Assembly (NCBI RefSeq): GCF_013343115.1
Contig: NZ_CP054570.1
Location: 1,798,001-1,862,000, forward strand
Source: Streptococcus sanguinis
GTDB taxonomy: Bacteria; Bacillota; Bacilli; Lactobacillales; Streptococcaceae
Direction: 5' to 3'
DNA length: 64,000 nt
Below, in pieces: positions 12,872 to 49,118 of this stretch. The notes beneath the pieces were generated by a model, which was given only the letters and a program-made list of their open reading frames with translations, searched no databases and was not told the DNA's origin. Every line of letters begins with the position of its first letter. Position 1 is the first letter of the stretch. A program made the translations under genes and the position numbers.

Positions 12872-13237
12872 CTATGGTCGACGCATCTGACCAAAGGTTG
12901 GCAGAGAAGAAGCAAAACGGCCTTGCTGCAAGATGTCATGATGCAGGGCACGGCGGACATCTTTGTCACTAATGGTCTTGCGGGACTTGGCTTCACGCTC
13001 AGCATATTTCCTCTTAATTGCAGCGATATTATAACCTTCCGAAATATAATCTTTAATTTCTAAAAGGCGGTCCATATCATTCAAAGAATACATCCGACGA
13101 TTGCCCTCATTCCGAGCAGGGGTAATCAGATTCTGGTCTTCATAATAACGGATCTGACGGGCAGATAGGTCCGTCAGTTTCATAACACTGCCGATGGGAA
13201 AGACTGCCATGTTTCGGCGAAACTCTTTTTCCTTCAT
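12872..13237 (-). CDS. glnR: MerR family nitrogen repressor GlnR
   Basis: 121 residues. The MerR-type helix-turn-helix with wing is SVMKLTDLSARQIRYYEDQNLITPARNEGNRRMYSLNDMDRLLEIKDYI. The C-terminal tail (RFASSLPTFGQMRRP) is the part that senses feedback-inhibited glutamine synthetase in the family. GlnR represses glnRA and other nitrogen genes in glutamine excess. A GlnR box lies at its own promoter, so it is autoregulated. Confidence 0.96.
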   Translation of the reverse strand: MKEKEFRRNMAVFPIGSVMKLTDLSARQIRYYEDQNLITPARNEGNRRMYSLNDMDRLLEIKDYISEGYNIAAIKRKYAEREAKSRKTISDKDVRRALHHDILQQGRFASSLPTFGQMRRP

Positions 13238-13258
13238 TCAAATTCCTCTCTACGCACT

Positions 13259-13287
13259 ATTATAGGACGAAATAAATCTTATGTCAA
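13259..13287 (-). promoter_or_regulatory. glnRA promoter (perfect consensus)
   Basis: Minus-strand TTGACA (complement of 13282-13287), 17-base spacer, TATAAT (complement of 13259-13264). Confidence 0.9.
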
Positions 13288-13294
13288 GAAATAA

Positions 13295-13311
13295 TGTCAG
13301 ATTTTCTTACA
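13295..13311 (-). promoter_or_regulatory. GlnR box
   Basis: Minus-strand TGTAAGAAAATCTGACA fits the known TGTNA-N7-TNACA site exactly and lies just upstream of the -35 of glnR. The adjacent TGACATTATTTCTTGACA resembles a second degenerate half. Confidence 0.85.
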
Positions 13312-13317
13312 CAGATT

Positions 13318-13842
13318 TTATTTTTTCTTTTCAAAGATGGTTCGCAGCCGATCTATATCAGAATTTACCAGAATCGCAACAAAGACTCCCATGAAGGTTT
13401 CAAAGATTCTAGCAAAAACATACAAGATGGTATCTTCCGGCCGAATGGACAGGGTAATAATCAGCATGGCAGATACTCCGCCAATGACTCCCGCCTTGTT
13501 GTTCATAGCGACATTGGTCATAATTGTCAGCATAGTACAGACCGGTACCAAAAGGAGGGTGACCCAATACTGCTCCTTAAAGACACTATTGGCAATGAAA
13601 AAGAGCAGAGCGTAAAAACCACCGATGCTGTTTCCCAAGATTCGCGATGTCCCAAAGTGGACACTCTTATCAAAATCCTCACGAAGACTAAAGACTGCCG
13701 TCAAAGCACCGATTTGCAGCCCTTTCCAACCAAAAAGGCCAAAGAGCAGTAGAATGATGAAAACAGCCAGACCGGTTTTAAAGGTACGCATGCCCAGACG
13801 AAATTTCGATTTATCAAACTTGTACTTATTGAAATAACTCAT
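13318..13842 (-). CDS. FUSC/aromatic acid exporter-like membrane protein
   Basis: 174 residues, several transmembrane helices (LAVFIILLLFGLFGWKG, YALLFFIANSVF, YWVTLLLVPVCTMLTIMTNVAM, GVIGGVSAMLIITLSI) and a short charged C-terminus. The pattern RTFKTGLAV ... GLQIGALTAVFSLREDFDKSV fits the ArAE_1/DUF939 family (YgaE-like) in Firmicutes. In pneumococcus a gene of this kind also sits just upstream of glnR. Transport of aromatic acids is only a family-level suggestion. RBS AAGGAGACT at start ATG 13842. Confidence 0.75.
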   Translation of the reverse strand: MSYFNKYKFDKSKFRLGMRTFKTGLAVFIILLLFGLFGWKGLQIGALTAVFSLREDFDKSVHFGTSRILGNSIGGFYALLFFIANSVFKEQYWVTLLLVPVCTMLTIMTNVAMNNKAGVIGGVSAMLIITLSIRPEDTILYVFARIFETFMGVFVAILVNSDIDRLRTIFEKKK

Positions 13843-30556: not shown

Positions 30557-31651
30557 TTATTTATCCAAATCCCTGACATATTGGTCGACTGCTAGGATGG
30601 CACCTGCAATGTCAGAAGCTGAAATCTCAAATGGCATCTGATGGATGGTTTCGCCCTCAATCGTCGCTTGCTGACCAACTTTGAGCAAATCTTCATAGCT
30701 GGCATTTTCTAAATGCATTTCTTTCAGAGTTGTCGGCATACCAATCTTTTGATAGAAGCGAATATATTTTTCCAATTCTTCTTTAGGTCGGTTTTCTAAT
30801 AAGAGCTGGGTCAAAGTTCCATAGGCAACTTTTTCGCCGTGGGTCAAGTGATGAATATCGCCTGTAAGAGCTGTAAAGCCGTTGTGGATAGCATGGGCTG
30901 CCGCTAAACCGCCGCTCTCAAAGCCGACGCCGCTGAGAAGGGTATTGGCTTCAATGATATTTTCCAGAGCTGGAGTTACAACTTTTGCTTCACAGGCTGC
31001 GATAGCCTGCAGGCCATCTGCAAACAGTGTTTCTTCACACTTCTTCGCAATCGCCACACCAGCCAGACTCTGTCTTTGTCCCAACATGGTAGTGCCATTT
31101 TTCTGCTGGACAGCACGCGCCTCTACCCAAGTCGCTAAACCATCTGCAATCCCAGAAGCCAGAAGTCGTTTTGGCGCTCCAGCAATCACTTTCGTATCCA
31201 CCAAGACGAGTTCAGGATTTTTACTATAGAAAATATACTTTTCAAAGGCGCCGTCTTCTGTATAGATAACAGAAAGTGCTGACGTTGGGGCATCTGTAGA
31301 GGCAATGGTTGGCGCAATGACCACAGGACGTCCTAGTATGTCTGCAATGGCCTTCGCACTGTCAATCGTTTTTCCACCACCTAGACCAATAACCAAGTCT
31401 GCTCCGTCTTTTTCAGCCAGAGCAACGACCCGATCAATTTCAGCATCAGAAGCTTCTCCGTTAAAAGCTACATGCAGCACATGAAAGCCATAACGAGTAA
31501 GGTAGTCATTGAATTTCTCCCCAACAATCTGGTAAACCACATCATCACAAAGCAAGACTGGATGGCTGCCTAACTGAAGAATCTGTTTCGCATTTTCAAA
31601 CAGAGCATTTTCTCCCTGAATATAACGAGACGGACTTGCAAAAATTTTCAT
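30557..31651 (-). CDS. gldA: Glycerol dehydrogenase (NAD+, zinc), likely hydroxyacetone reductase in this cluster
   Basis: 364 residues of the iron-containing/polyol dehydrogenase superfamily. NAD-binding GLGGGKTIDSAKA (about 93-105); metal ligands D in GIADGLATW and His in AAHAIHNGF and HHLTHGEKV. It reduces dihydroxyacetone/hydroxyacetone or oxidises glycerol. It is the last gene of the GRE-fsa-gldA unit. In the E. coli anhydroglycolysis pathway GldA turns hydroxyacetone into 1,2-propanediol; that role here is inferred from the context. Confidence 0.95.
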   Translation of the reverse strand: MKIFASPSRYIQGENALFENAKQILQLGSHPVLLCDDVVYQIVGEKFNDYLTRYGFHVLHVAFNGEASDAEIDRVVALAEKDGADLVIGLGGGKTIDSAKAIADILGRPVVIAPTIASTDAPTSALSVIYTEDGAFEKYIFYSKNPELVLVDTKVIAGAPKRLLASGIADGLATWVEARAVQQKNGTTMLGQRQSLAGVAIAKKCEETLFADGLQAIAACEAKVVTPALENIIEANTLLSGVGFESGGLAAAHAIHNGFTALTGDIHHLTHGEKVAYGTLTQLLLENRPKEELEKYIRFYQKIGMPTTLKEMHLENASYEDLLKVGQQATIEGETIHQMPFEISASDIAGAILAVDQYVRDLDK

Positions 31652-31696
31652 AGAGCACCTCTTTCTTTTTTATAGATAGAGCATTATATATGCCTG

Positions 31697-32365
31697 TTAA
31701 ATGTGTTCCTGATTGTGAATTGCTGACCAGTCAGCAGCAAAGTCATCTACCGCCTTAGCGATAGACGGCATGGCAAAGGCTGCTCCAAAGATATCTGGTC
31801 CTGCTGTAATAGCTTGAGCCCCATCAGCAAAAGCACGATTGATTTGGCCAACATTCTTAAAGGAAGCTGCCAATATTTTGCTGGCGGAATGATCCCGCTC
31901 AATCGCCTGAGCCAACTGGCTGATGATAGCATCTGAATCAATATTAAGATTTTCCATGCGGTTATAGTAAGGAGCAAGATAGTCAGCCCCCGCTTCAATG
32001 GCTAATAGACCTTGAAAGGTTGTATAAATGGCTGTCGCTGTAATCTTGTAGCCTTCTGCTTTGAGAATTTTGATAGCTGCCAGCCCAGCCGGTGTGACCG
32101 GAACTTTAATGTAGACAGCATCGCCGCATTTTTTTCGAATTTCAGCAGCATCTTTCAAGATTCCCTCATAATCCTTGGCAACAACCTGCACATGGATAGA
32201 TGGACCTTCTCCTATGATTTCCCGAACAGCGCGAATCCGTTCGAAGAAGTCTATTTTTCCTTCTTTTTTTGCGATGGTCGGATTAGAAGTCACTCCCGCC
32301 AAGGGGAGGACTTCCGACCATTTTTTTATCTCCTCTAAATTTAAGGTATCAAGCATGAATTCCAT
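31697..32365 (-). CDS. fsa: Fructose-6-phosphate aldolase (TalC/MipB-type transaldolase)
   Basis: 222 residues, the short decameric FSA class. Schiff-base lysine is K87 in VYIKVPVTP; the N-terminal D6 (MLDTLN) and T26/N28 (GVTSNPT) are conserved. FSA splits fructose 6-phosphate or 1-deoxyfructose 6-phosphate to glyceraldehyde 3-phosphate plus dihydroxyacetone or hydroxyacetone. It lies 14 bases after the glycyl radical enzyme and 45 bases before gldA, a three-enzyme order that makes the deoxy-sugar reaction likely. Often annotated simply as transaldolase. Confidence 0.93.
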
Positions 32366-32379
32366 AAATTGGACCTCTT

Positions 32380-34821
32380 TTACAATGTGTGCTCCGTACG
32401 TCCAATAATATCATCTTGCGTCGCCTTGGAAAGCACATTGAAGAAAGCAGAGTACCCTGCAACACGAACAATCAAATCGCGGTGTTTTTCAGGATGCTTC
32501 TGAGCATCAATCAAGGTTTCCCGAGAAACGACATTGTATTGGATATGATAGCCATGCAGACGGTTAAAGAATGTACGAAGCAAGGCAATAAGTTTCACTT
32601 TATCTTCTTCCTTAGACAGGGTCTGAGGATTGACTTTTTGATTAAGCAGAACGCCACCTACGATTTCGTCTGTCGGTAATTTAGAAACAGATTTCAATAC
32701 GGAGGTTGGGCCGTTCTTGTCCATATTGTGGGATGGAGAGCAGCCTTCAGCGAGCGGTGTTCCGGCATTGCGGCCATCTGGTGTCGCCAAGGTACCGCGA
32801 CCTTGACCTACATTGGCTGAAATAGAAGACGTTCCTGAGTAGCGGATACCGCCAATTGGACCGCGGCCATAACGGGTATTTGGATATTTAGCGATTTCAT
32901 CCACATAAATATCATAAGCATCTGTCACTAGCTTATCTGCGTAATCATCATCATTACCATATTTTGGTGCATCATGAATCAGCATCTCTTGAATTTCTTT
33001 ACCCCGCTCACCTGCATAGTCCGTTTCAAGTGCATGCCAGAGTTCAGCCGGAGTCAGCCTGCCTTCCTCAAAGACCAGCTTTTTGATAGCCGCCAATGAG
33101 TCTGATAGATTGGCAATACCGACTTGAAGACCGGAAATATAGTCATAGACAGCTCCGCCCTCTTTCAAATGCTTACCGCGTCCGATACAGTCATCTGTCA
33201 AAGCTGAGCAGAGGATATCCGGCACTTCTCTTTCAAGAGACAGGTCAATAGAATTTTCCACGATGACACTCATGCGGGTCAAATGGCGCAAGGTCTTGTC
33301 CCAAGCCGTTTGCAGCTCAGCAAAGCTCTTCATATCTTTAAAATGACCGAAGCTTGGTGCAAAGCGCTTGCCAGATGCTGGATCAATTCCATCGTTCATA
33401 GTAATCAGGAGTACCTTAGGGAAGTTCATGTAGCTCATGCCTGTACAACGGTAGCCCCATTTACCAGGCACAGCAGTTTCCACACAGCCGATAGCACTGT
33501 AATCGTATGCATCTTCTTCCAAAACGCCTTTGGCGATAAAGGACGGAATGATGATTTCATCATTATTGAAGGCCGGCATACCGAAACCAAGCTTCATGAC
33601 TTCGATACACTCATTCATAAAGCGAGCATCTAAGCCTGCATGATAGCGAACAGTCAGATTCGGCTGAGGAAGATGAGTTTGAGCTACAGATTTCAAGACA
33701 AGGTAGGAAAGCGGGTTGACTGCATCTCTCTTATCTCTCGTTTGGCCACCGATTGTCACATTTTGATAAAGGGGACTGCCCGCAGATGAGAATGTGTGGG
33801 CCTGGCTGCGCACTTTATTAATGGTAATCGTCTTAATCCAGAGATTGGTTAAGCGTTCCACAATACTAGCCTCTGTCTCACGTCCAGCTTCCAAATCTGC
33901 CTTGACATAAGGATACATGTACTGGTCAAAGCGGCCATAAGAGAGTGAATGTCCGTTGGACTCAATCTGAAGGATACACTGGATAAACCAAACAGACTGA
34001 ACAGCTTCAGCAAAGGTTGATGCTGGCTCGTACGGCACTTTAGAACAGATTCTAGCGATTTCTAAGAGCTCTTGACGGCGCTTAGGCTCTGCTTTTTCAG
34101 CAAGCTGATTGGCCAAGGCCACAAAACGCTCCGCATAAGCTTTCACAGCATCTACTACGATGAAAATGGAATCATAGAAGTGGTATTTATCAATACTAGC
34201 CGGATCGGTCAAATCCAAGGCTTCCTTAGCTGCGCGAGCTTTTTCTTCAAAACCTTTCAGTCCATAGGCCAAGAGTTTTTGATAGTTGACCGCCAAGTGG
34301 GCATCCCCAGAGTTCATCTTTCCTTCCATGCCAAAGAAGCCAGTTTCCATATAAACCTGAACTTCCTCTGGAAGTAAAGCTCCAGCTCTCGCACGGAGGT
34401 TATTATTTTCCCAGAAAGGAGCGATGCTGCGGAGCTGCTCTTTGGTTTCTTCTGTAATGTAGAAGACGTCTCCGTCCCGCTTCTCAAAAAGATCTAGTTC
34501 ATTGAGTACAAACTCTAAAGTATACTCTGGGAAGATAGGCGCGTCTTTATTAGATGAAGCCTGATTGCCGACAATCATCGTTTCATCTTCGATATAAAGC
34601 GTCATATTTTCCAAAATCTCTTTAAGCATATAAGCACGTTTCAACACATTTGGTTTTTCCTTATGCTTATCATAGGCCTTAGTAGCTAGGACAGCACGCT
34701 CTGCATCAATATAGGGCTTTTTATTTAAAACATCTTCCCGATATTTATTCATCCGCTCTGTTAAGCTACCAAAATAGTCTGTTTTTATTGTTGTTTTTTC
34801 TACTTCTTTTACTTGGATCAT
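32380..34821 (-). CDS. pflF: Glycyl radical enzyme of the C-O lyase (YbiW/PflD) type, not pyruvate formate-lyase
   Basis: 813 residues. Glycyl radical motif RVAGYSAFF with the radical at G789. Active-site cysteine C446 in [13 protein letters not shown], followed by E448. True pyruvate formate-lyase has two adjacent cysteines; the single Cys plus C-x-E is the signature of radical dehydratases and C-O/C-N lyases such as glycerol dehydratase and CutC. Length and neighbours (fsa, gldA, PTS, activase) match E. coli YbiW/PflD, reported to open 1,5-anhydroglucitol- or anhydromannitol-6-phosphate to 1-deoxyfructose 6-phosphate. Commonly annotated as formate acetyltransferase, which I think is wrong. 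It is oxygen sensitive and needs the activase at 39743-40519. Confidence 0.9.
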
Positions 34822-34868
34822 TTGGCCACGACCTTTCTTATGAAATTTAATTTATTTCTTTCGTAACT

Positions 34869-34897
34869 ATTGTAACATGCAAAATCCTAGAATTCAA
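34869..34897 (-). promoter_or_regulatory. Promoter of the GRE-fsa-gldA unit
   Basis: Minus-strand TTGAAT (complement of 34892-34897), 17-base spacer, extended -10 TGTTACAAT (complement of 34869-34877). A TTTCTTTCGTAA element (34855-34866) overlaps the start site. Confidence 0.7.
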
Positions 34898-34928
34898 TCA
34901 TTTATAGGCGATTACTGAATTAAAGATT

Positions 34929-34945
34929 TTTTGCACATTTGTGCC
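34929..34945. promoter_or_regulatory. Operator-like motif TTTTGCACATTTGTGC, copy 1
   Basis: Centre GCACA-TT-TGTGC is palindromic. It lies about 35 bases upstream of the -35 of the GRE gene. The same 16 bases occur at 37108-37123 upstream of the PTS genes. Confidence 0.7.
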
Positions 34946-34989
34946 ATCTGAGCCAAGAAACTTTTGTGTTTTTATCCATCAAAATCAGA

Positions 34990-36291
34990 TTATTCTTCAT
35001 TTTTCAATTCGTTATTGTAGGCAATCTTATCCTGAAACTTCACAAATGGGAAATAGACAAAGGCAGACATAGCTAGAATGACAATTTGAATGACTGCCCC
35101 TTGCCAGCCAGCGACCATAAAGCCAGAAATGATAGCCGGTGTACTCCAAGGCAAAGTCACACCTGCGAATGGCTGCATAAAGCCGACCGCAATCGCCATG
35201 TAGACAATCAAAGCGGCTAGAACCGGTACCAAAACAAAGGGCAGAAACATGACCGGATTCATCACAATCGGAAAACCAAAGACAACTGGCTCATTGACAT
35301 TAAAGATTGCCGGGAAAGCAGCAACTTTCCCCAGAGCCTTATACTGTTTGGACTTGGCAGCAAAGAGCATGGCCACGACCACTCCGAAAGTAATACCGGA
35401 TCCCGATAAGATAAGAAAACTATCCAAGAACTGTTGGGTCACAATATGAGCGCCTTGACTAACGGACAGCTTATCTGCAGCAAGCAGGGCCTTATTGGCA
35501 TCTAGATTTGACAGTAGCAAAGCTGTTACGACACCATTGACAACGGACTGACCGTGGACGCCGAACCACCACAGGAAAGAAATAAAGAAAGCAATACCGA
35601 TAGCTCCATACAGAGAGCCTGTCAGACCTTGCAGAGGCACCTGAATGACATCGTAAATCATCTCAATAAAGGTACCGCCACCTGTCACTATCTTGGCAAT
35701 AATATAAACAAGCATTGACAGCAAGAAAATAACGAAAGCAGGAATCATGGCTTCAAACTGCTTGGCAATCGCTTGAGGAACCTGCTCTGGCATTTTGATG
35801 ACAATATGCTTTTGAATGAAAATCGTATAGATACTGCCAACTGCCAGACCAATGAGAATGGCTCCAATGATTCCTTGTCCGCCAAACCAGACCTTGGCAA
35901 TCGCATCTGCAATCGCCTCACCCTTTTCTGGTATGTAGGAGGATTTCAAAAGTATAAAGAAAGAAGAAAGAGACAACACCCCTGCCGGCAGAGGCTCTAC
36001 ACCGCTATTCTTGGCATAAGAATAACCAATTGAAAAACAGGAAATCAGCCCCATAATGGCAAAGGTTCCTGAATAAACCTGCATAAACGGTTCTGTCCAG
36101 TCAGCCCCAAACACACCAGCAATGGCTTGATTTAGACCTTCAAACGGCAATTGCCCTACAATCAAGAATAGACTTCCCACAACTGTAAGAGGCAAAATTG
36201 CCAACATACCGTCTTTTAAGGCGATAATCCCGCGCATATTGACAAACTTCATAATCGGCGCAATGATTTTTTGAGTATCCACTTTAGACAT
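34990..36291 (-). CDS. PTS lactose/cellobiose-type transporter subunit IIC
   Basis: 433 residues, about ten transmembrane helices. EIIC family signature: MSKVDTQKIIAPIMKFVNMRGIIALKDGMLAILPLTVVGSLFLIV at the start, and FGVHGQSVVNG and NEPVVFGFPIVMNP in the loop that binds sugar. It imports and phosphorylates its sugar with the IIA and IIB proteins coded just upstream. In the cluster context the incoming substrate should be the precursor of the GRE substrate, a 1,5-anhydrohexitol, which the PTS would deliver as the 6-phosphate. Pneumococcal homologues are labelled cellobiose PTS only by similarity. Confidence 0.92.
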   Translation of the reverse strand: MSKVDTQKIIAPIMKFVNMRGIIALKDGMLAILPLTVVGSLFLIVGQLPFEGLNQAIAGVFGADWTEPFMQVYSGTFAIMGLISCFSIGYSYAKNSGVEPLPAGVLSLSSFFILLKSSYIPEKGEAIADAIAKVWFGGQGIIGAILIGLAVGSIYTIFIQKHIVIKMPEQVPQAIAKQFEAMIPAFVIFLLSMLVYIIAKIVTGGGTFIEMIYDVIQVPLQGLTGSLYGAIGIAFFISFLWWFGVHGQSVVNGVVTALLLSNLDANKALLAADKLSVSQGAHIVTQQFLDSFLILSGSGITFGVVVAMLFAAKSKQYKALGKVAAFPAIFNVNEPVVFGFPIVMNPVMFLPFVLVPVLAALIVYMAIAVGFMQPFAGVTLPWSTPAIISGFMVAGWQGAVIQIVILAMSAFVYFPFVKFQDKIAYNNELKNEE

Positions 36292-36308
36292 AACGAAGCT
36301 CCTTGATT

Positions 36309-36620
36309 TTAATGTTTATCCAACAAACTCAAAGCGAGGTTTAACACTTTTTCGCCATCTAGCATACCGTAATCAGCCATCGGAATAACTGCAATCGGAG
36401 TATGGCAGCTGTCGCAAATAGCTGTAGATTTGTCTAGTGTATAGGCTACCTGCGGGCCCAATAAAGCGACATCCAGATCCGCTGCATAATCAGCCAACTT
36501 AGCCTGAGAGTAGGCTTCAATCTCAGCTTCCAGCCCTTTTTCAGCTGCAGCTATTTTCATATTGTTGACCAACATTCCTGTTGAAAAACCTGCCGCGCAA
36601 AACAAACCAATCTTAACCAT
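36309..36620 (-). CDS. PTS lactose/cellobiose-type subunit IIB
   Basis: 103 residues. Phosphoacceptor Cys8 in KIGLFCAAGFSTGMLVNNM, the IIB(Lac/Cel) P-loop, and GPQVAYTLD. It passes phosphate from IIA to the sugar on IIC. Lies 18 bases before IIC and 20 bases after IIA in the same unit. Confidence 0.93.
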   Translation of the reverse strand: MVKIGLFCAAGFSTGMLVNNMKIAAAEKGLEAEIEAYSQAKLADYAADLDVALLGPQVAYTLDKSTAICDSCHTPIAVIPMADYGMLDGEKVLNLALSLLDKH

Positions 36621-36640
36621 CTTTTCATCCTCCTGATGAT

Positions 36641-36964
36641 TTATTTTTCCCCTTGTAATTCTCTTCTCAAGTCGATGATTTCTTTGATGAGGTTAATCTC
36701 TGTAATGCTAGTCATCAAATGATCTTGAGAATGAACAAACAGTGCTGTAATCTCTGTTTTCGTTCCTCCAGCTTCCTGAGCTAGGAACTTGGTCTGCAAG
36801 TTATGGGCCTCTAACAGCGCCTTATCTGCCAGCTCAATCTGCTCATCGCATTCTGAAAACTTACCATCTTTAGCTAGTGATAAAGCTTGATAAATATGCT
36901 GCTTGGCATCACCAGCGTCTAAGATAAGACCCATGATAATTTGATCTGCTACAATCATTTCCAT
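36641..36964 (-). CDS. PTS lactose/cellobiose-type subunit IIA
   Basis: 107 residues, all-helical IIA(Lac/Cel). Phosphohistidine H78 in FVHSQDHLMTS. First gene of the IIA-IIB-IIC unit. Start ATG 36964 lies 12 bases after GGAG (ATAGGAG); a second ATG two codons later is possible. Its upstream gap carries a promoter and the TGCACATTTGTGCA operator. Confidence 0.92.
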   Translation of the reverse strand: MEMIVADQIIMGLILDAGDAKQHIYQALSLAKDGKFSECDEQIELADKALLEAHNLQTKFLAQEAGGTKTEITALFVHSQDHLMTSITEINLIKEIIDLRRELQGEK

Positions 36965-37077
36965 ATGTTACAATCGCTCCTATCTTTATGATTAACAAAA
37001 ACTTGTTCTTTTGTTTGAAAGTGATTTATTTTTGTTTGTAACTAGAATGTATCACCTTTATCTCAGTCCGTCAATAT

Positions 37078-37124
37078 ATTATAGAACAAATTAGCTTATT
37101 TAAATTATTTTGCACATTTGTGCA
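37078..37124 (-). promoter_or_regulatory. PTS operon promoter with TTTTGCACATTTGTGC motif, copy 2
   Basis: TATAAT (complement of 37078-37083) without a good -35. The perfect 14-bp palindrome TGCACATTTGTGCA (37111-37124) is centred about 46 bases before the expected start, a usual activator position. The remaining bases of the 36965-37294 gap hold no gene; the mRNA leader would be about 105 bases. Confidence 0.65.
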
Positions 37125-37294
37125 GAATAAAAACTCCCCCGATAAAGGACAGTTCTGTACAGCTGTATTCATCTGCGATTCAAAGGCACTCTATTAGATA
37201 AGAACGATAAGCAGATTCGGCACAAAAAAGAAGTAGCAGCTATTCGCTTCTACTTCCTCATATATGCTATTTTAAGAAACCGAAACTTATCTTT

Positions 37295-37786
37295 TTATGC
37301 AGCTTTCTCAATTTCCTTTGCTATTCTACTTTTCCGCAATTTCCTCTGGAGGATATATTTCAATAAAACAGCAGGATTCAGACTATAGGATAATTGTAAT
37401 TTAAAATAATTAATCCACTCGATGACAGCAAAAAAACAAATTGCTAAAAAGATTATGGATGTGGGAAATTCACTGTAATTTAAAATAATTATCAAGGCCC
37501 CTACACCTAGTAAAATAAGGTCTAAGATCTTTAGTATTCTGTAAATCTTGCCTGTATATCTTTCAGCAAATCTTGGATTGGAAATCCTTTTTATCAAAAT
37601 CCACCAGAAAACAGAGCCCTGTATCAAAATAAAACTCAGTACAAACAAGGAGAAAGAAATAGAAATCAAAGCTCCAGTAGTAAGAATCCATTTTTTGAGA
37701 AGGAAAAAATTCATCCAAAATACTAGCACAGCGACTAGCTCCCCTGTGGCTAAACTAGTCAATTTTCGTTTCATTAACTTTTTCAA
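37295..37786 (-). CDS. Hypothetical membrane protein
   Basis: 163 residues from TTG 37786 (GGAGG 12 bases upstream; ATG 37774 is an alternative without RBS). Four hydrophobic segments: LVAVLVFWMNFFLL, TGALISISFSLFVLSFILIQGSVFWWILI, ILDLILLGVGALIIIL and SIIFLAICFFAVIEWINY. The C-terminus is basic (LQRKLRKSRIAKEIEKAA). I do not recognise the family. The region is AT-rich compared with its neighbours and interrupts the regulator-PTS order known from pneumococcus, which suggests a later insertion. Confidence 0.65.
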   Translation of the reverse strand: MKKLMKRKLTSLATGELVAVLVFWMNFFLLKKWILTTGALISISFSLFVLSFILIQGSVFWWILIKRISNPRFAERYTGKIYRILKILDLILLGVGALIIILNYSEFPTSIIFLAICFFAVIEWINYFKLQLSYSLNPAVLLKYILQRKLRKSRIAKEIEKAA

Positions 37787-37886
37787 ATCAACAATCCACC
37801 TCCATACATAAGTGCTAATTTTACATAAAAAATAGGGTTCCTAAATTTCGTTTTGGAAATCTTATTCACCTGAGATTCTAATGCCA

Positions 37887-38858
37887 TCAGGAAGTGAGGA
37901 AACTCCTATCTCCGTCCAAGTCTAGCATTTTCAAAATAGTCGCCTCATCCGTAATCAAATGATTGACATAGCCAGCTCGCAACACCGCTAAGATAGCAGC
38001 AGATTTTTGACTGCCATAGGCAAAGGCCAGACTAAGCGGCACTTTTTTCAAATTTTCCAAAGAGATGGCAATCGTTCGATTTTGCAAATGCTGGTAGACC
38101 ATCTCCCCTTTTTTATTAAAGAAGCGACAGCAGATTTCTCCGACAGCATCCTGACTCTCTAGAGCAAGAAAATCCTCTGAGGTCAGCATGTCCAGCCATT
38201 GACGATTTCTCGTGTCAACCTGCCCTCCAATACCAACCACAGCCACATCCAGCTCCTGCCAGCTGCTTTTCAGATCTTCAAAATATTTAGAAGCCAATAT
38301 TCCATTTGTCAGTTGCTCGTTCTCCTGAATAATCGTGGAATTCATAAAACGGCAGTCCCCATGGTATTTTCCAGCCATGCTATAGATGAGGGTGTTCACA
38401 TGATAGCGTGCATGGATATGACTCGGTCCACCTGCCAAAGGAAAGAAATGGACATTTGTCAAATGCTTGCTGCTAGAGTGCTCTACTAAAAGGCTCAAGC
38501 TCTTTCCCCAAGAAAATCCCACTTTATCATTGTCTTTAATCAGGCCGCGCAGCATACCTGCAGCAGCTTGAGCCAACCTCTCTTCCAGGTCTGCTGGAGA
38601 TTCATCTACTAAGTTACTGACAATTTCGATTCCCTTGAGCCCGTATTTTTCTTTTACATAGTTTTCCAAATGGAACAAGCGGGTATCGAAATCTTCGATC
38701 TCAATCTTCACAATGCCTTCTTTTTTAGCTTCTGCCAGCATTCGGCTGATAGTGGTGCGATAAATCCCTGTCTCAGCCGCAATGTCAGACTGGCTTCTTT
38801 CTTCTATGTAGTAGAGATAAGCAATTTTTGCCAATAGTTTTTTTCTTTCATTTTTCAT
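37887..38858 (-). CDS. SorC/DeoR-type sugar-binding transcriptional regulator
   Basis: 323 residues. N-terminal helix-turn-helix KIAYLYYIEERSQSDIAAETGIYRTTISRMLAEAKKEGIVKIEI and the SorC sugar-phosphate-binding domain (FSWGKSLSLLVEH, VVGIGGQVDTRN, GEICCRFF). Such proteins act as repressors or activators controlled by phosphosugars. It forms a two-gene unit with the DeoR gene upstream (16 bases). The TGCACATTTGTGCA motifs at the PTS and GRE promoters are its likely targets. Confidence 0.9.
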   Translation of the reverse strand: MKNERKKLLAKIAYLYYIEERSQSDIAAETGIYRTTISRMLAEAKKEGIVKIEIEDFDTRLFHLENYVKEKYGLKGIEIVSNLVDESPADLEERLAQAAAGMLRGLIKDNDKVGFSWGKSLSLLVEHSSSKHLTNVHFFPLAGGPSHIHARYHVNTLIYSMAGKYHGDCRFMNSTIIQENEQLTNGILASKYFEDLKSSWQELDVAVVGIGGQVDTRNRQWLDMLTSEDFLALESQDAVGEICCRFFNKKGEMVYQHLQNRTIAISLENLKKVPLSLAFAYGSQKSAAILAVLRAGYVNHLITDEATILKMLDLDGDRSFLTS

Positions 38859-38874
38859 CTTATCTCCTTCTCTG

Positions 38875-39618
38875 CTAGATCAGAGTCAGCTTGATATCGG
38901 CAGCTTTCAAGCGCTCAACAGCCTCTTTAGGAATCGCCTTGTCAGTCACCACTTGGGCAATCTGTTTGAAGCCAAATCTCTTAACCGTTCCTTTTCTGGT
39001 AAACTTACTTGAGTCCGTCAAGACAATCATCTGGTCAGATGCCTCTGACATATACTGCACAACCTCACTCCGCATCAGGTCCTTGCCTGTAAAGCCTAGA
39101 TTTTCATCATAGCCATCTGTTCCGACAAAAGCATGTTCTACGTGGAAAAAGCGGATCATTTCCTTGAGAAGAGGCCCTACTGTCACTTGAGAATCTTTCT
39201 GAAATTCTCCGCCCAGTAAGATAATTTTACAAGAATCAGTTTGTTTTATATAATCCGCAATAAAATAAGAATTGGTAATAATCTTGACATTCTTCTTCGT
39301 CCGGCAGATTTCCTCAGCTAGCAAGGCACAGGTCGAACCTGATTCGATCATAATGGTTTCATTATCCTGAACGATTTTTGCTGCTTCCTGGGCAATTCGG
39401 CGCTTGGTATCATAATGAAAGGAAAGTCTGACATTCAGATCATCGCCGCTATTTAAAACAGCATAGCCATGCTCTCTGCGCAGTAGACCTTTGGTTTCCA
39501 GCTTATCCAAGTCCTTGCGAATCGTTACTTTGGACACTTTTAACCGGTCAGACAAAGTATTGACATCAATTCGTTCAAATTCAGATACTAATTTAACAAT
39601 TTCATCTAAACGTTCCAT
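38875..39618 (-). CDS. DeoR/GlpR family transcriptional regulator
   Basis: 247 residues. Winged helix ERLDEIVKLVSEFERIDVNTLSDRLKVSKVTIRKDLDKLETKGLLRREHGYAV, then the DeoR sensor domain with IMIESGSTCALLAEEI, LGGEFQKDSQVTVGP and VGTDGYDENLGFTGKD. Members are repressors released by phosphosugars. It is divergent from the GRE activase gene, and the matching TTTC(A/T)TTCGTAA elements near the activase and GRE promoters are candidates for its operator. Confidence 0.92.
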   Translation of the reverse strand: MERLDEIVKLVSEFERIDVNTLSDRLKVSKVTIRKDLDKLETKGLLRREHGYAVLNSGDDLNVRLSFHYDTKRRIAQEAAKIVQDNETIMIESGSTCALLAEEICRTKKNVKIITNSYFIADYIKQTDSCKIILLGGEFQKDSQVTVGPLLKEMIRFFHVEHAFVGTDGYDENLGFTGKDLMRSEVVQYMSEASDQMIVLTDSSKFTRKGTVKRFGFKQIAQVVTDKAIPKEAVERLKAADIKLTLI

Positions 39619-39636
39619 TCTATCACCTCTGCTATT

Positions 39637-39717
39637 ATTGTAACAAAAGACGCCTTAAAAATAAAATAAAAATAACTTTCATTCGTAATTGTTTTTCTTT
39701 CTAAAATAAGTTATAAT
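39637..39717. promoter_or_regulatory. Divergent promoters of the DeoR gene and the activase gene
   Basis: Rightward: TTGTTT (39689-39694), 17 bases, TATAAT (39712-39717). Leftward: extended -10 TGTTACAAT (complement of 39637-39645), the same form as at the GRE gene. TTTCATTCGTAA (39677-39688) lies against the rightward -35. Confidence 0.65.
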
Positions 39718-39742
39718 GATTATATCCAAAGGAGGCCTGAGT

Positions 39743-40519
39743 ATGGAAACAACAAAAGGAATTATTTTCAACATCCAACATTTCAGTATTCATGATGGAC
39801 CAGGGATTCGTACAACGGTTTTCCTCAAGGGCTGTCCTCTGCGCTGCCCTTGGTGCTCTAATCCAGAATCACAGCAATTCAGACCCGAGCCTATGCTGGA
39901 TGCTACTACCAAAAAAAGCATCACTATGGGGGAGGAAAGAAGTGTCGAGGAGATTATCAACGAAGTCCTAAAGGACAGAGATTTTTATGAAGAATCTGGC
40001 GGTGGCCTAACCTTATCTGGCGGAGAGATTTTCGCCCAGTTTGAATTTGCCAAGGCCATTCTCAAAGCGGCTAAGGAAAAAGGGATTCATACCGCTATTG
40101 AAACAACTGCCTTTGTAGAACATGAAAAATTCGTGGATCTCATCCAGTACGTTGATTTTATCTATACAGACCTGAAACATTATAACTCTGTCAACCACCG
40201 CAAGGTGACTGGAGTAAAAAACGAATTAATTGTTCAGAATATCCACTACGCCTTCACTCATCAAAAGACGATTGTTCTGCGCATTCCTGTCATTCCAGAT
40301 TTTAATGACTCTTTAGAAGATGCAGAGCGGTTTGCGACTTTGTTTAATGAACTATCCATCGATCAAGTCCAGCTGTTGCCTTTCCATCAATTTGGCGAAA
40401 ATAAATACAAATTACTTGGCCGAAAGTATGCCATGGAAGATGTCAAGGCCTTGCACCCTGAAGACTTATTTGAATACCAAGATGTCTTTTTGAAGCATGA
40501 CATTAATTGTTATTTTTAG
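39743..40519 (+). CDS. pflE: Glycyl radical enzyme activating enzyme (radical SAM)
   Basis: 258 residues from ATG 39743 (AAAGGAGG upstream). Radical SAM cluster CPLRCPWC with C31-x3-C35-x2-C38, preceded by the activase signature HDGPGIRTTVFLKG, and GGGLTLSGGE for SAM. It makes the glycyl radical on the enzyme at 32380-34821. Most activases of non-PFL radical enzymes carry an inserted ferredoxin-like domain with eight cysteines after the cluster; here that stretch is about 25 residues and cysteine-free, like PFL activase. Confidence 0.93.
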   Translation: METTKGIIFNIQHFSIHDGPGIRTTVFLKGCPLRCPWCSNPESQQFRPEPMLDATTKKSITMGEERSVEEIINEVLKDRDFYEESGGGLTLSGGEIFAQFEFAKAILKAAKEKGIHTAIETTAFVEHEKFVDLIQYVDFIYTDLKHYNSVNHRKVTGVKNELIVQNIHYAFTHQKTIVLRIPVIPDFNDSLEDAERFATLFNELSIDQVQLLPFHQFGENKYKLLGRKYAMEDVKALHPEDLFEYQDVFLKHDINCYF

Positions 40520-42699: not shown

Positions 42700-44115
42700 C
42701 TAAGATTTTTTCTTCAAGCCAAGGAAGCCAGCTCCCAGCCCTAAGAGTCCGAGTCCAAGCAGATTGGTCAATAGACTGCTTTGGCTGCCGGTCTTAGGTA
42801 GTTGTTTGGAAGAAGCTTGTTGAAGAGTTGGCTCTTGAGACGATGCTTGAGGGTCCGTCTGGCCGTTTGCTTTGTAGGTTAGATTTTCCACCTGGCTACT
42901 CTTTGAATCAGGACTTGCAGGAGTTTGCTGCTGGGCTTGATTTTGAGAGGCCTGCTCCATATCGGCCAACGGTACGATACTCTTCATAAACTCATCTTGT
43001 GAAATGGCCCTTTCTTCAACTGCATCTTGAATACCAGTGAGGCTGACAAAATAATAACGCGCCCAATCCTTGGTCAGTCGCTGAATACCAGCCAGACCAG
43101 CTCCTGGATACCAGAGCGGCTTGCTCACTTCTTCAGCAAATTTCCAGTCACCACCAACTTGAATACCAAGCTTGGCATCTGGATCAGATTTTTCAGAAAT
43201 ACGAGCTTCTACGGAAACTAAAACAGCCCGAATGGTTTGAGGATTTGGAATATCACGGGCTTGATCAGAACCCCAGTGGGCAACCCGATCTTGCTTAGGT
43301 AAGACCTCAATAGCTGTTCCCCCGCCAGCCAAGGCTTCCTGCTGGGCATCTCCTACGTTGCTGGACATATTCCCCTTGAATTGAGAAACCCATTGAACCC
43401 CTTGAGGGTGATCCACAATTTTCTCCCAAACATTGGAGTCCTTCCGGAGCACGAAAGCCTGCATGTTACGAATATCCGCCCAAGCATTGCTGGCCTTATT
43501 GTCCGTCATTTCCATCACAACACCCCAAGGATCAAATTCATTCATCCATTTGCCGCGTTCCTTGTCAAAGACAGCCTTCGCTTCTTCGTCAGTCATCCCT
43601 TCGCCTTTATAAGCTAGGTAGTACCAATCAGCTGCTGGGTCATAAGTCGGACGACCGCCTAACACGACGGCTCCGCCATTAAATTGGCCAGGACCGCCAT
43701 TAGGACCGCGCTTTTGACGCTCCCCATTTTCTTCAACGACATTTTCCTCCGACCAAACCCAGACATCCCCTTGATTGGCTCCCATCTGAGCAATGGCGCG
43801 CTGCTTCTGCTCATCGGACATGACCTGATTGGCTGGCAACTCGCTAGCGGCTGCAGCTGATTCAGCCTGATTTGCAGGAGCTGCTTGGGGTTCAGCCACA
43901 GCTGGATTTTCAGCCTCAGGACTTGCTTGCGGTGCTGGAGAAGCCGGCGTTTCAGCCACTGCGGCAGGGGCAGGCGCAACATCTTCTGCTTCAACTCTTG
44001 AGACAGCTGTAAAAGCTGCTAAGGACAAGAGGGAAGCACATAGCAGCAAGCCGCTCCCATACTTGGCAGCAGAAGCAGATTTTGTTATAGCTTGCCAAGA
44101 AAACTTATTATTCAT
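42700..44115 (-). CDS. LPXTG cell wall-anchored protein with unrecognised central domain
   Basis: 471 residues. Signal peptide, about 1-43 (SAAKYGSGLLLCASLLSLAAFTAVSRVEA). Ala/Pro/Glu-rich stalk, about 44-98. A compact, Trp-rich central domain, about 105-390 (WVWSEENVVEENGERQKRGPNGGPG, ADWYYLAYKGEGMTDEEAKAVFDKERGKW, LGIQVGGDWKFAEEVSKPLWYPGAG). Then a Gln/Ser-rich linker and LPKTG at 439-443 with hydrophobic tail and KKKS. I do not recognise the central domain; the WYPGAG/WARYYFVSL pattern could be a carbohydrate-binding sandwich. It is downstream of the bgaC-aldo-keto reductase operon without a clear terminator between. Confidence 0.85.
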   Translation of the reverse strand: MNNKFSWQAITKSASAAKYGSGLLLCASLLSLAAFTAVSRVEAEDVAPAPAAVAETPASPAPQASPEAENPAVAEPQAAPANQAESAAAASELPANQVMSDEQKQRAIAQMGANQGDVWVWSEENVVEENGERQKRGPNGGPGQFNGGAVVLGGRPTYDPAADWYYLAYKGEGMTDEEAKAVFDKERGKWMNEFDPWGVVMEMTDNKASNAWADIRNMQAFVLRKDSNVWEKIVDHPQGVQWVSQFKGNMSSNVGDAQQEALAGGGTAIEVLPKQDRVAHWGSDQARDIPNPQTIRAVLVSVEARISEKSDPDAKLGIQVGGDWKFAEEVSKPLWYPGAGLAGIQRLTKDWARYYFVSLTGIQDAVEERAISQDEFMKSIVPLADMEQASQNQAQQQTPASPDSKSSQVENLTYKANGQTDPQASSQEPTLQQASSKQLPKTGSQSSLLTNLLGLGLLGLGAGFLGLKKKS

Positions 44116-49081: not shown

Positions 49082-49118
49082 ATTATAACTATTTTTCTGT
49101 ACCATGTCAACGCTTACA
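49082..49118 (-). promoter_or_regulatory. PTS-bgaC promoter with cre site
   Basis: Minus-strand TTGACA (complement of 49105-49110), 17-base spacer, TATAAT (complement of 49082-49087). The -35 is embedded in TGTAAGCGTTGACA (complement of 49105-49118), which fits the CcpA cre consensus TG-N2-A-N-CG-N4-CA. Direct catabolite repression follows. Confidence 0.85.

Follow-up and report, generated by a model that had tools for sequence, protein, structure and literature searches.

A predicted 1,5-anhydroglucitol fermentation module in Streptococcus sanguinis, built around a YbiW-like glycyl radical enzyme

A block of ten genes at 30557-40519 of a 64,000-nucleotide stretch of Streptococcus sanguinis DNA (contig NZ_CP054570.1; the whole stretch is called the window, and positions are those of the window) probably encodes a self-contained anaerobic module for the use of 1,5-anhydroglucitol (AG). 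The genome is 2.36 Mb long, in one contig. Thirty mechanically called open reading frames (ORFs) covered the stretch in question and its margins. The ten that form the block encode a dehydrogenase (GldA), a fructose-6-phosphate aldolase (FSA), an 813-aa glycyl radical enzyme (GRE), the IIA, IIB and IIC proteins of a Lac-family phosphotransferase system (PTS), a SorC-type and a DeoR-type regulator, a GRE activase and a 163-aa ORF (Table 1). Proteins were named with NCBIfam and Pfam profiles against curated cut-offs. A sequence-only reading of this DNA had listed the PTS, the GRE, its activase, FSA, GldA and the two regulators; each lies where it had been placed and matches a curated model. The 163-aa ORF and the two promoter regions with their common palindrome are additions to that reading. 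Our interpretation is built on what is observed here: the gene set, the family placement and residue conservation of the GRE, and the sites shared by the upstream regions. That the block belongs to the anhydroglycolysis type of pathway is, judged from sequence, highly likely. The pathway itself is known; the streptococcal block would be a new member of it.

Table 1. Genes and putative regulatory features of the block, in window positions
Feature	Position	Strand	Basis or remark
gldA	30557..31651	-	glycerol/1,2-propanediol dehydrogenase type; NF006941 554 bits, cut-off 336
fsa	31697..32365	-	fructose-6-phosphate aldolase type; NF009299 414 bits, cut-off 214
GRE, predicted YbiW-type lyase	32380..34821	-	TIGR01774 920 bits, cut-off 678
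Putative DeoR-like operator repeats (TTACGAAAGAAA ... TTTCATAAGAAAGG)	34831..34868	-	directly after the -10 box of the GRE promoter
Probable GRE-operon promoter TTGAAT-17-TACAAT	34869..34897	-	rests on conserved spacing
Palindromic site GGCACAAATGTGCA	34932..34945	-	34 bp upstream of the -35 box of the GRE promoter
PTS EIIC, Lac/cellobiose family	34990..36291	-	TIGR00410 378 bits, cut-off 236
PTS EIIB, Lac family	36309..36620	-	Pfam PF02302 (PTS_IIB) above cut-off; NCBIfam models below theirs
PTS EIIA, Lac family	36641..36964	-	Pfam PF02255 (PTS_IIA) above cut-off; NCBIfam models below theirs
Putative DeoR-like operator repeats	37008..37045	-	directly after the -10 box of the PTS promoter; resemble the GRE-promoter repeats
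Probable PTS-operon promoter TTGACG-17-TACATT	37046..37074	-	rests on conserved spacing
Palindromic site TGCACAAATGTGCA	37111..37124	-	36 bp upstream of the -35 box of the PTS promoter
163-aa ORF, no known family	37295-37786	-	TTG start; between sorC and IIA
SorC-type regulator with sugar-binding domain	37887..38858	-	Pfam Sugar-bind 250 bits
DeoR-family regulator	38875..39618	-	Pfam DeoRC and HTH_DeoR above cut-off
Radical-SAM glycyl-radical activase	39716..40519	+	TIGR02494 291 bits, cut-off 174

The E. coli YbiW-YbiY-FsaA route for 1,5-anhydroglucitol 6-phosphate was reportedly described by Ma et al. in 2024. The anhydrohexitol-6-phosphate activities of YbiW and of a second E. coli GRE, PflD, are covered in section 5.1 of a review (PMC12441222). 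Full-length identity of the window GRE is about 51% with YbiW and 37% with PflD; its closest named relative is from S. sanguinis (L071, 99.9%). Among solved chains its best scores were 894 bits with 6xs4, labelled formate C-acetyltransferase, and 873 with the YbiW chains 8yjn and 8id7. In our second tree, of 42 rows (mixture model, quick search, rooted at the midpoint, the root itself not being inferred), 16 streptococcal-type rows form one group (support 100) and 9 YbiW rows another (support 99). The two groups, 25 rows in all, unite with a value of 99 in the Shimodaira-Hasegawa-like approximate likelihood ratio test (SH-aLRT), on a branch that excludes PflD, glycerol dehydratase, CutC and HypD. 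One result named in advance by the sequence-only reading as speaking against its anhydrohexitol pathway was a GRE that sorted with some other characterised activity; we ran this comparison, and the GRE joins YbiW, not PflD, glycerol dehydratase, CutC or HypD. In a first tree, of 137 rows, the streptococcal-type group spans Enterococcus, Lactobacillaceae, Erysipelotrichaceae, Lachnospiraceae, Selenomonadaceae, Actinomycetota and Spirochaetota, and the YbiW group contains Enterobacteriaceae, Aeromonas, Bacteroidales, Spirochaetota and one Firmicutes metagenome bin.

Database names, and the linkage to an activase and GldA, would favour a second pyruvate formate-lyase (PFL) or a mixed-acid module leading from glycerol to fructose 6-phosphate. 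Such a reading appears in the consulted portions of papers on S. suis (PMC13262394) and pneumococcus (PMC3302838). We give it almost no credence, and the profile scores already contradict it: the GRE reaches 182 bits against a cut-off of 994 for TIGR01255 (pyr_form_ly_1) and was rejected as a PFL, and a true PFL is encoded elsewhere in the genome. That protein passes TIGR01255 (1055 bits on a 629-aa piece); it and the anaerobic ribonucleotide reductase NrdD, also elsewhere, are the genome's two other Gly_radical proteins. PFL has a Cys-Cys pair at its active site; in the window GRE that pair is missing, and one Cys stands there, followed two positions later by Glu (G-C-V-E). The view that the usual labels, pyruvate formate-lyase 2 and cellobiose PTS, mislead is thus borne out; the S. 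suis paper, from 2026, still assigns these genes to glycerol and mixed-acid metabolism in the text consulted (PMC13262394). Assignment to the PflD type was rejected as well, by a separate tree group and by 558 bits against the 1109 of NF007437, a model labelled formate C-acetyltransferase in NCBIfam whose coverage of PflD is deduced from the passing of L133, a protein 61% identical to PflD. CutC (537 bits, curated cut-off 1050) and HypD (568 bits, curated cut-off 1100) were likewise rejected.

We then compared positions that are fixed (over 95% within a group) among 80 streptococcal-type, 12 YbiW, 3 PflD, 5 glycerol dehydratase, 10 CutC and 9 HypD rows. Where both the streptococcal-type and the YbiW group are fixed, the residue is the same at 198 of 203 positions (97.5%); the same measure gives 160/221 for PflD, 165/220 for glycerol dehydratase, 137/215 for CutC and 117/168 for HypD (64-75%). 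With YbiW reduced to three subsets of 3 or 5 rows, identity was 87, 96 and 96%, still above the other families. Of the five fixed differences, T390/S, I424/V and V447/I are conservative, whereas A267/P and T331/L are non-conservative; V447 separates the catalytic Cys from the Glu. Catalytic C446 and E448, whose positions the sequence-only reading had right, and the glycyl-radical Gly789 are all present. At 24 positions, moreover, the two groups share a fixed residue that hardly occurs in 35 other GREs; among these are D173, H342, Y352, W455, R458, G461, S665 and a small insert with G654-P655. The YbiW-special positions are kept at 28 of 28 in the window GRE and at 23 or more in the streptococcal-type rows, against 0-4 in five reference rows (PflD, glycerol dehydratase, CutC, HypD); since these positions were chosen on the same alignment, the 28/28 is a description and the 203-position comparison the fairer test. 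An AlphaFold2 model of the GRE has a mean predicted local distance difference test score (pLDDT) of 87.1 and a predicted template modelling score (pTM) of 0.90; the pocket is argued from the alignment, not from coordinates. Taken together with the tree, these residues make the enzyme a predicted lyase that would convert AG 6-phosphate to 1-deoxyfructose 6-phosphate.

The same product would arise if the GRE were a dehydratase of an open-chain hexitol phosphate such as sorbitol 6-phosphate, with no change needed in the other genes. The GRE is closely related to diol dehydratases: the B12-independent glycerol dehydratase (1r8w) belongs to the same GRE family and uses the same Cys/Glu/Gly machinery, and among the lower-scoring solved chains glycerol dehydratase reached 620 bits, above PflD (8yjo) with 463. 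We nevertheless consider a hexitol phosphate dehydratase very unlikely, because the YbiW-special positions are kept, including those replaced relative to glycerol dehydratase, and because a Lac-family PTS is presumably an improbable importer of hexitols. Glycerol dehydratase itself was rejected: its N156, D447 and Y640, which we take to be the glycerol-contact residues, correspond to G167, G461 and S665 in the window GRE, as in YbiW. The block also differs from that system in having FSA and GldA and no 1,3-propanediol gene set.

After the proposed lyase step, the pathway requires an aldolase and a dehydrogenase, and the FSA-type and GldA-type proteins, with their catalytic residues, would meet this need. 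The window FSA falls below the TIGR00875 cut-off and is 37% identical to FsaA; it matches FsaA at the catalytic residues D6, N28, Q60, K87, T111, Y133, R136 and S168. GldA is 49% identical to the compared part of E. coli GldA (L005) and keeps D170, H253 and H271, presumably its metal ligands. FSA accepts the fructo configuration at C3 and C4; among the 1,5-anhydrohexitols, therefore, only AG and its C2 epimer would remain as sources of its substrate. Between the CxxxCxxC and SGGE motifs the window activase has 53 residues and no Cys, against 97 residues with 6 Cys in YbiY. Thus the Cys-rich ferredoxin-like insert present in YbiY and in 30 other activases of related GREs is absent from the window activase. 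Six or more Cys occur in the insert region of 31 of the 65 activases scored (4 were unscored), and examples lacking the insert include L036-L044 and L087, among others; this pattern suggests that a single GRE group is served both by activases with the insert and by activases without it.

Orthologues of the GRE (84-100% identical) occur in 48 of 147 Streptococcus genomes; some are partial or split over contigs and one has an in-frame stop. Matches were found in 50 genomes, of which two were counted out as 35-36% paralogues. The gene order of the block recurs in S. intermedius, S. australis, S. suis and S. zalophi. Neighbourhoods were counted in the 49 of 80 named loci that have enough flank (41 streptococcal-type, 8 YbiW-type). 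An activase lies near the GRE in 48 of the 49 and a DeoR-type gene in 33. The streptococcal-type loci have an activase in 40, a DeoR-type gene in 30, FSA in 29, a SorC-type gene in 11, GldA in 9, IIC in 8 and a ROK kinase in 5; the YbiW-type loci have an activase in 8, a ROK kinase in 4, FSA in 3, a DeoR gene in 3 and IIC in none.

Because the predicted substrate is a 6-phosphate, its source had to be accounted for. A IIC orthologue (79-100% identical) is present in 40 of the 147 genomes, and all 40 also have the GRE; the PTS and GRE upstream regions also share the same palindrome at similar spacing. On these grounds we take the PTS to belong to the module, in keeping with the earlier suggestion of a pathway with its own importer. 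The 6-phosphate would then come from a PTS within the block, as opposed to a kinase, with a sugar specificity that is predicted. IIC misses the cut-off of the cellobiose equivalog TIGR00359 (378 bits against 434), and its only solved relative by sequence is 3qnq, labelled cellobiose-specific IIC. In no locus of the 49 do IIC and a ROK kinase occur together, and ROK genes, confirmed with Pfam in 4 of 4 tested, are found in 9. One of them, beside a YbiW-group GRE (L108), has glucokinases as its nearest solved structures, and at a Treponema locus (L087) RbsABC-like ABC transporter genes, an activase and a ROK kinase adjoin the GRE. If the substrate is a 6-phosphorylated, hexose-like compound, the same enzyme is expected to be accompanied by a PTS in one genome and by a sugar kinase in another, as is observed.

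The sequence-only reading had left the substrate as anhydroglucitol or anhydromannitol. Indeed, both epimers would give 1-deoxyfructose 6-phosphate, since the configuration at C2 is lost, and FSA and GldA would be blind to the difference; in addition, L188, N388, K743 and F751 occur in all three of the streptococcal, YbiW and PflD groups and hardly at all outside them. A pathway for 1,5-anhydromannitol (the PflD activity), or for both epimers, is nevertheless an unlikely reading, for the GRE joins YbiW rather than PflD and differs from PflD at 61 of 221 doubly fixed positions. Furthermore, when seven streptococcal genomes were searched with PflD, three proved to hold a second, separate module in the order SorC-IIA-FrwB-FrwC-PflD-activase-FSA (L210 in G043, L211 in G021 and L212 in G106). 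Its PflD ortholog is 60-61% identical to PflD, its FrwB-like and FrwC-like proteins are 55-62% and 48-49% identical to FrwB and FrwC, and its IIA is 28-29% identical to the end part of PtsA; its FSA is 59-61% identical to the window FSA. G021 and G043 carry a YbiW-type module as well. The PflD-type module, with its Frw-type PTS, is likely the 1,5-anhydromannitol system, which would leave AG to the YbiW-type module. Both E. coli activities thus appear to have separate streptococcal modules, with different PTSs and the same kind of aldolase. Of the two substrates first suggested, AG is strengthened and 1,5-anhydromannitol weakened.

The closest known system is E. coli YbiW-YbiY-FsaA, and the block resembles it in having a YbiW-group GRE, an activase, an FSA-type aldolase and GldA. 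It differs in uniting these genes, gldA included, in one block with a dedicated Lac-family PTS and SorC and DeoR genes; in the 8 kb read around E. coli ybiW-ybiY-fsaA there is no PTS or gldA alongside. The proteins have also diverged, the FSA, the GRE and the activase as described above. The E. coli FrwCB-PflD-PflC system (with PtsA-FsaB-GldA), for 1,5-anhydromannitol 6-phosphate, follows the same logic of PTS, GRE, activase, FSA and GldA; its GRE belongs to the other group, however, its PTS is of the fructose type, and its direct counterpart is the second streptococcal module.

The upstream regions suggest that the two operons are controlled together. Across the genome, TGCACAAATGTGCA has one perfect copy, on the PTS side, and one copy with a single mismatch, on the GRE side, and these two are the best. 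A further five matches carry two mismatches each, and one of these is the first site in its opposite-strand reading; a control scan with the reversed pattern gave 0 forward and 3 reverse matches. What speaks for the palindrome is this ranking across the genome, together with its recurrence in relatives, many of which are almost identical: we examined the 30 best streptococcal IIC loci, eight of which are near-copies of the window locus, the window included. With 0-2 mismatches, TGCACANNTGTGCA precedes the GRE in 29 of the 30 and IIA in 28, and it stands in both places in 27; at one of the two loci without the IIA site the sequence is masked. In 43 motif-promoter pairs the distance from motif to -35 box is 34-37 bp in 38, 25-26 bp, about one helical turn less, in 4, and 51 bp in 1. 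The 34-37 bp spacing would suit an activator.

Which regulator binds there is suggested by co-occurrence. The full palindrome (at most 3 mismatches) precedes the GRE in 9 of the 11 loci that have sorC (not in L059 or L079) and in 1 of the 6 that lack it (L041). In the PflD-type modules, which have a SorC gene of their own, the motif is found upstream of IIA in 3 of 3 (0-2 mismatches) and upstream of PflD in 2 of 3. The SorC-type protein is therefore likely to own the palindrome and is probably an activator. Repeats like TTACGAAAGAAA / TTTCGAAAGAAAGG recur directly after the -10 box among streptococci; they are likely the predicted site of the DeoR-family protein, which would probably be a repressor. 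The consensus scan for promoters was near chance (26 sites against 20.6 expected, sd 4.2), and that for terminators was at chance (9 against 9.7). For the catabolite-response element no exact consensus match occurs in 30-41 kb, and the sole match in the window, at 49105, is at chance level. In pneumococcus, PflR sites have been mapped upstream of SP0245, SP0246 and SP0251, according to the text consulted (PMC3302838), and the six genes SP_0248-0253 drop together by 2.3 to 2.6 log2 under carolacton in the data consulted (PMC4939601).

These results lead us to propose the following mechanism, in which the substrate and every reaction step are modelled on the E. coli work and the binding and direction of the regulators are predicted. 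The Lac-family PTS would import AG and phosphorylate it at C6. The activase would place the radical on Gly789 of the GRE, which, through Cys446, would remove hydrogen from C2 of AG 6-phosphate and break the C1-O5 bond to give 1-deoxyfructose 6-phosphate. FSA would cleave this to glyceraldehyde 3-phosphate, which would enter glycolysis, and hydroxyacetone; GldA would reduce hydroxyacetone with NADH to 1,2-propanediol, renewing the NAD+ that glyceraldehyde-3-phosphate dehydrogenase consumes. Sensing of the sugar would fall to the SorC-type protein, which would activate both promoters from the palindrome, and the DeoR-type protein would repress from the start site. By our bookkeeping, the phosphoenolpyruvate made would pay for uptake, pyruvate could pass through the genome's PFL to acetate and formate, and the yield would be about two ATP per AG with redox balanced. 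Balanced in this way, the cluster would run without forming lactate, and only without oxygen.

Expression data from a related species bear on the module. According to the portions of the study consulted (PMC12282319), in S. anginosus KH1 all six genes rise in human plasma relative to artificial saliva: IIA 33-fold, IIB 49, IIC 30, GRE 146, FSA 104 and GldA 122. The media were heat-treated human plasma with 0.5% glucose and artificial saliva with 0.25% glucose, and section 17 of the paper gives no discussion of the six genes (PMC12282319). AG is present in human blood (PMC12441222); it is a metabolite of human plasma and saliva tied to glycaemic control (PMC6383396, PMC12849494, PMC4136819) and the precursor of the toxic phosphate in two neutropenias (PMC12441222). 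Induction by AG could explain the rise in plasma, as could other differences between the media.

Several points weigh against AG as the substrate or against the module as drawn. Characterised Lac-family PTSs transport disaccharides. At the threshold used, 8 of the 48 GRE-bearing streptococci have no IIC match; in 32 of the 49 loci, where only relatives of the window's IIC were sought, there is neither a window-like IIC nor a linked ROK kinase, implying that many loci rely on an importer encoded elsewhere or of a different type. GldA misses NF047954, the equivalog for the bifunctional propanediol/glycerol enzyme of E. coli type (410 bits against 700), and gldA is linked in just 9 of the 41 streptococcal-type loci. 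The 137-row tree, with a truncated, distant PFL outgroup on a very long branch, left the join of the streptococcal-type and YbiW groups open, a point that the 42-row tree, built without this outgroup, resolved; a shifted substrate is possible, given that the two groups are separate and only half identical. Within the window alone, 5 of 100 shuffles reached the count of three palindrome matches (at most 2 mismatches). As for KH1, the portions consulted (PMC12282319) show 61 loci up 10-fold or more, two media that differ widely, and routine culture under 10% CO2, not anaerobic. Finally, the literature searched yielded no enzyme or growth data for any streptococcus on AG, and among the papers listed, mostly as titles and abstract starts, we recognised none that links streptococci to anhydroglucitol.

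Some neighbouring features and related loci were also recorded. The 163-aa ORF looks hydrophobic and has no Pfam or NCBIfam match; it is present (87-99% identical) in 8 loci whose IIC is 99-100% identical to that of the window and has no match in the other 22 of the 30 streptococcal IIC loci. At 42700-44115 on the minus strand the window encodes a probable cell-wall-anchored surface protein, with LPKTG, which we take to be a sorting signal, near its end. No structured RNA matched at gathering scores within the window. At three clostridial loci a short-chain dehydrogenase follows the GRE instead of FSA (L093, at 13047-13805, by Pfam; L092 and L095 by sequence cluster), hinting at another product fate or another substrate. 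The GREs of L144 and L145 (genomes G332 and G507), 48-50% identical to the window GRE, branch just outside the YbiW and streptococcal group and keep 16 and 21 of the 28 signature residues. Near CutC, a compact GRE group is formed by L157, L158, L160 and L167; L157 and L158, the two members tested, fall short of every equivalog cut-off, with 700 and 716 bits on the CutC model, whose threshold is 1050.

Overall, a tentative extension of the AG reading is that human-associated streptococci, S. sanguinis, S. anginosus and pneumococcus among them, may harvest AG, sensed in plasma and saliva through the SorC regulator. If so, AG would be a private carbon source, barely used by the human body, and the 30-146-fold induction of the operon in human plasma despite glucose would be explained. 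Oral bacteria would then erode a clinical glycaemic marker, the diabetes marker AG, in saliva. A substrate would also be proposed for one of the two pneumococcal PTSs left without one in a systematic study, as far as the text consulted goes (PMC3302838). Two regularities, the pairing of YbiW with a Lac-type PTS and of PflD with a Frw-type PTS in separate modules and the way in which PTS and ROK kinase replace each other, suggest how the pathway might be annotated in other genomes, and the AG prediction would tie together the ecology of the mouth, growth in plasma and an assay used in the clinic.

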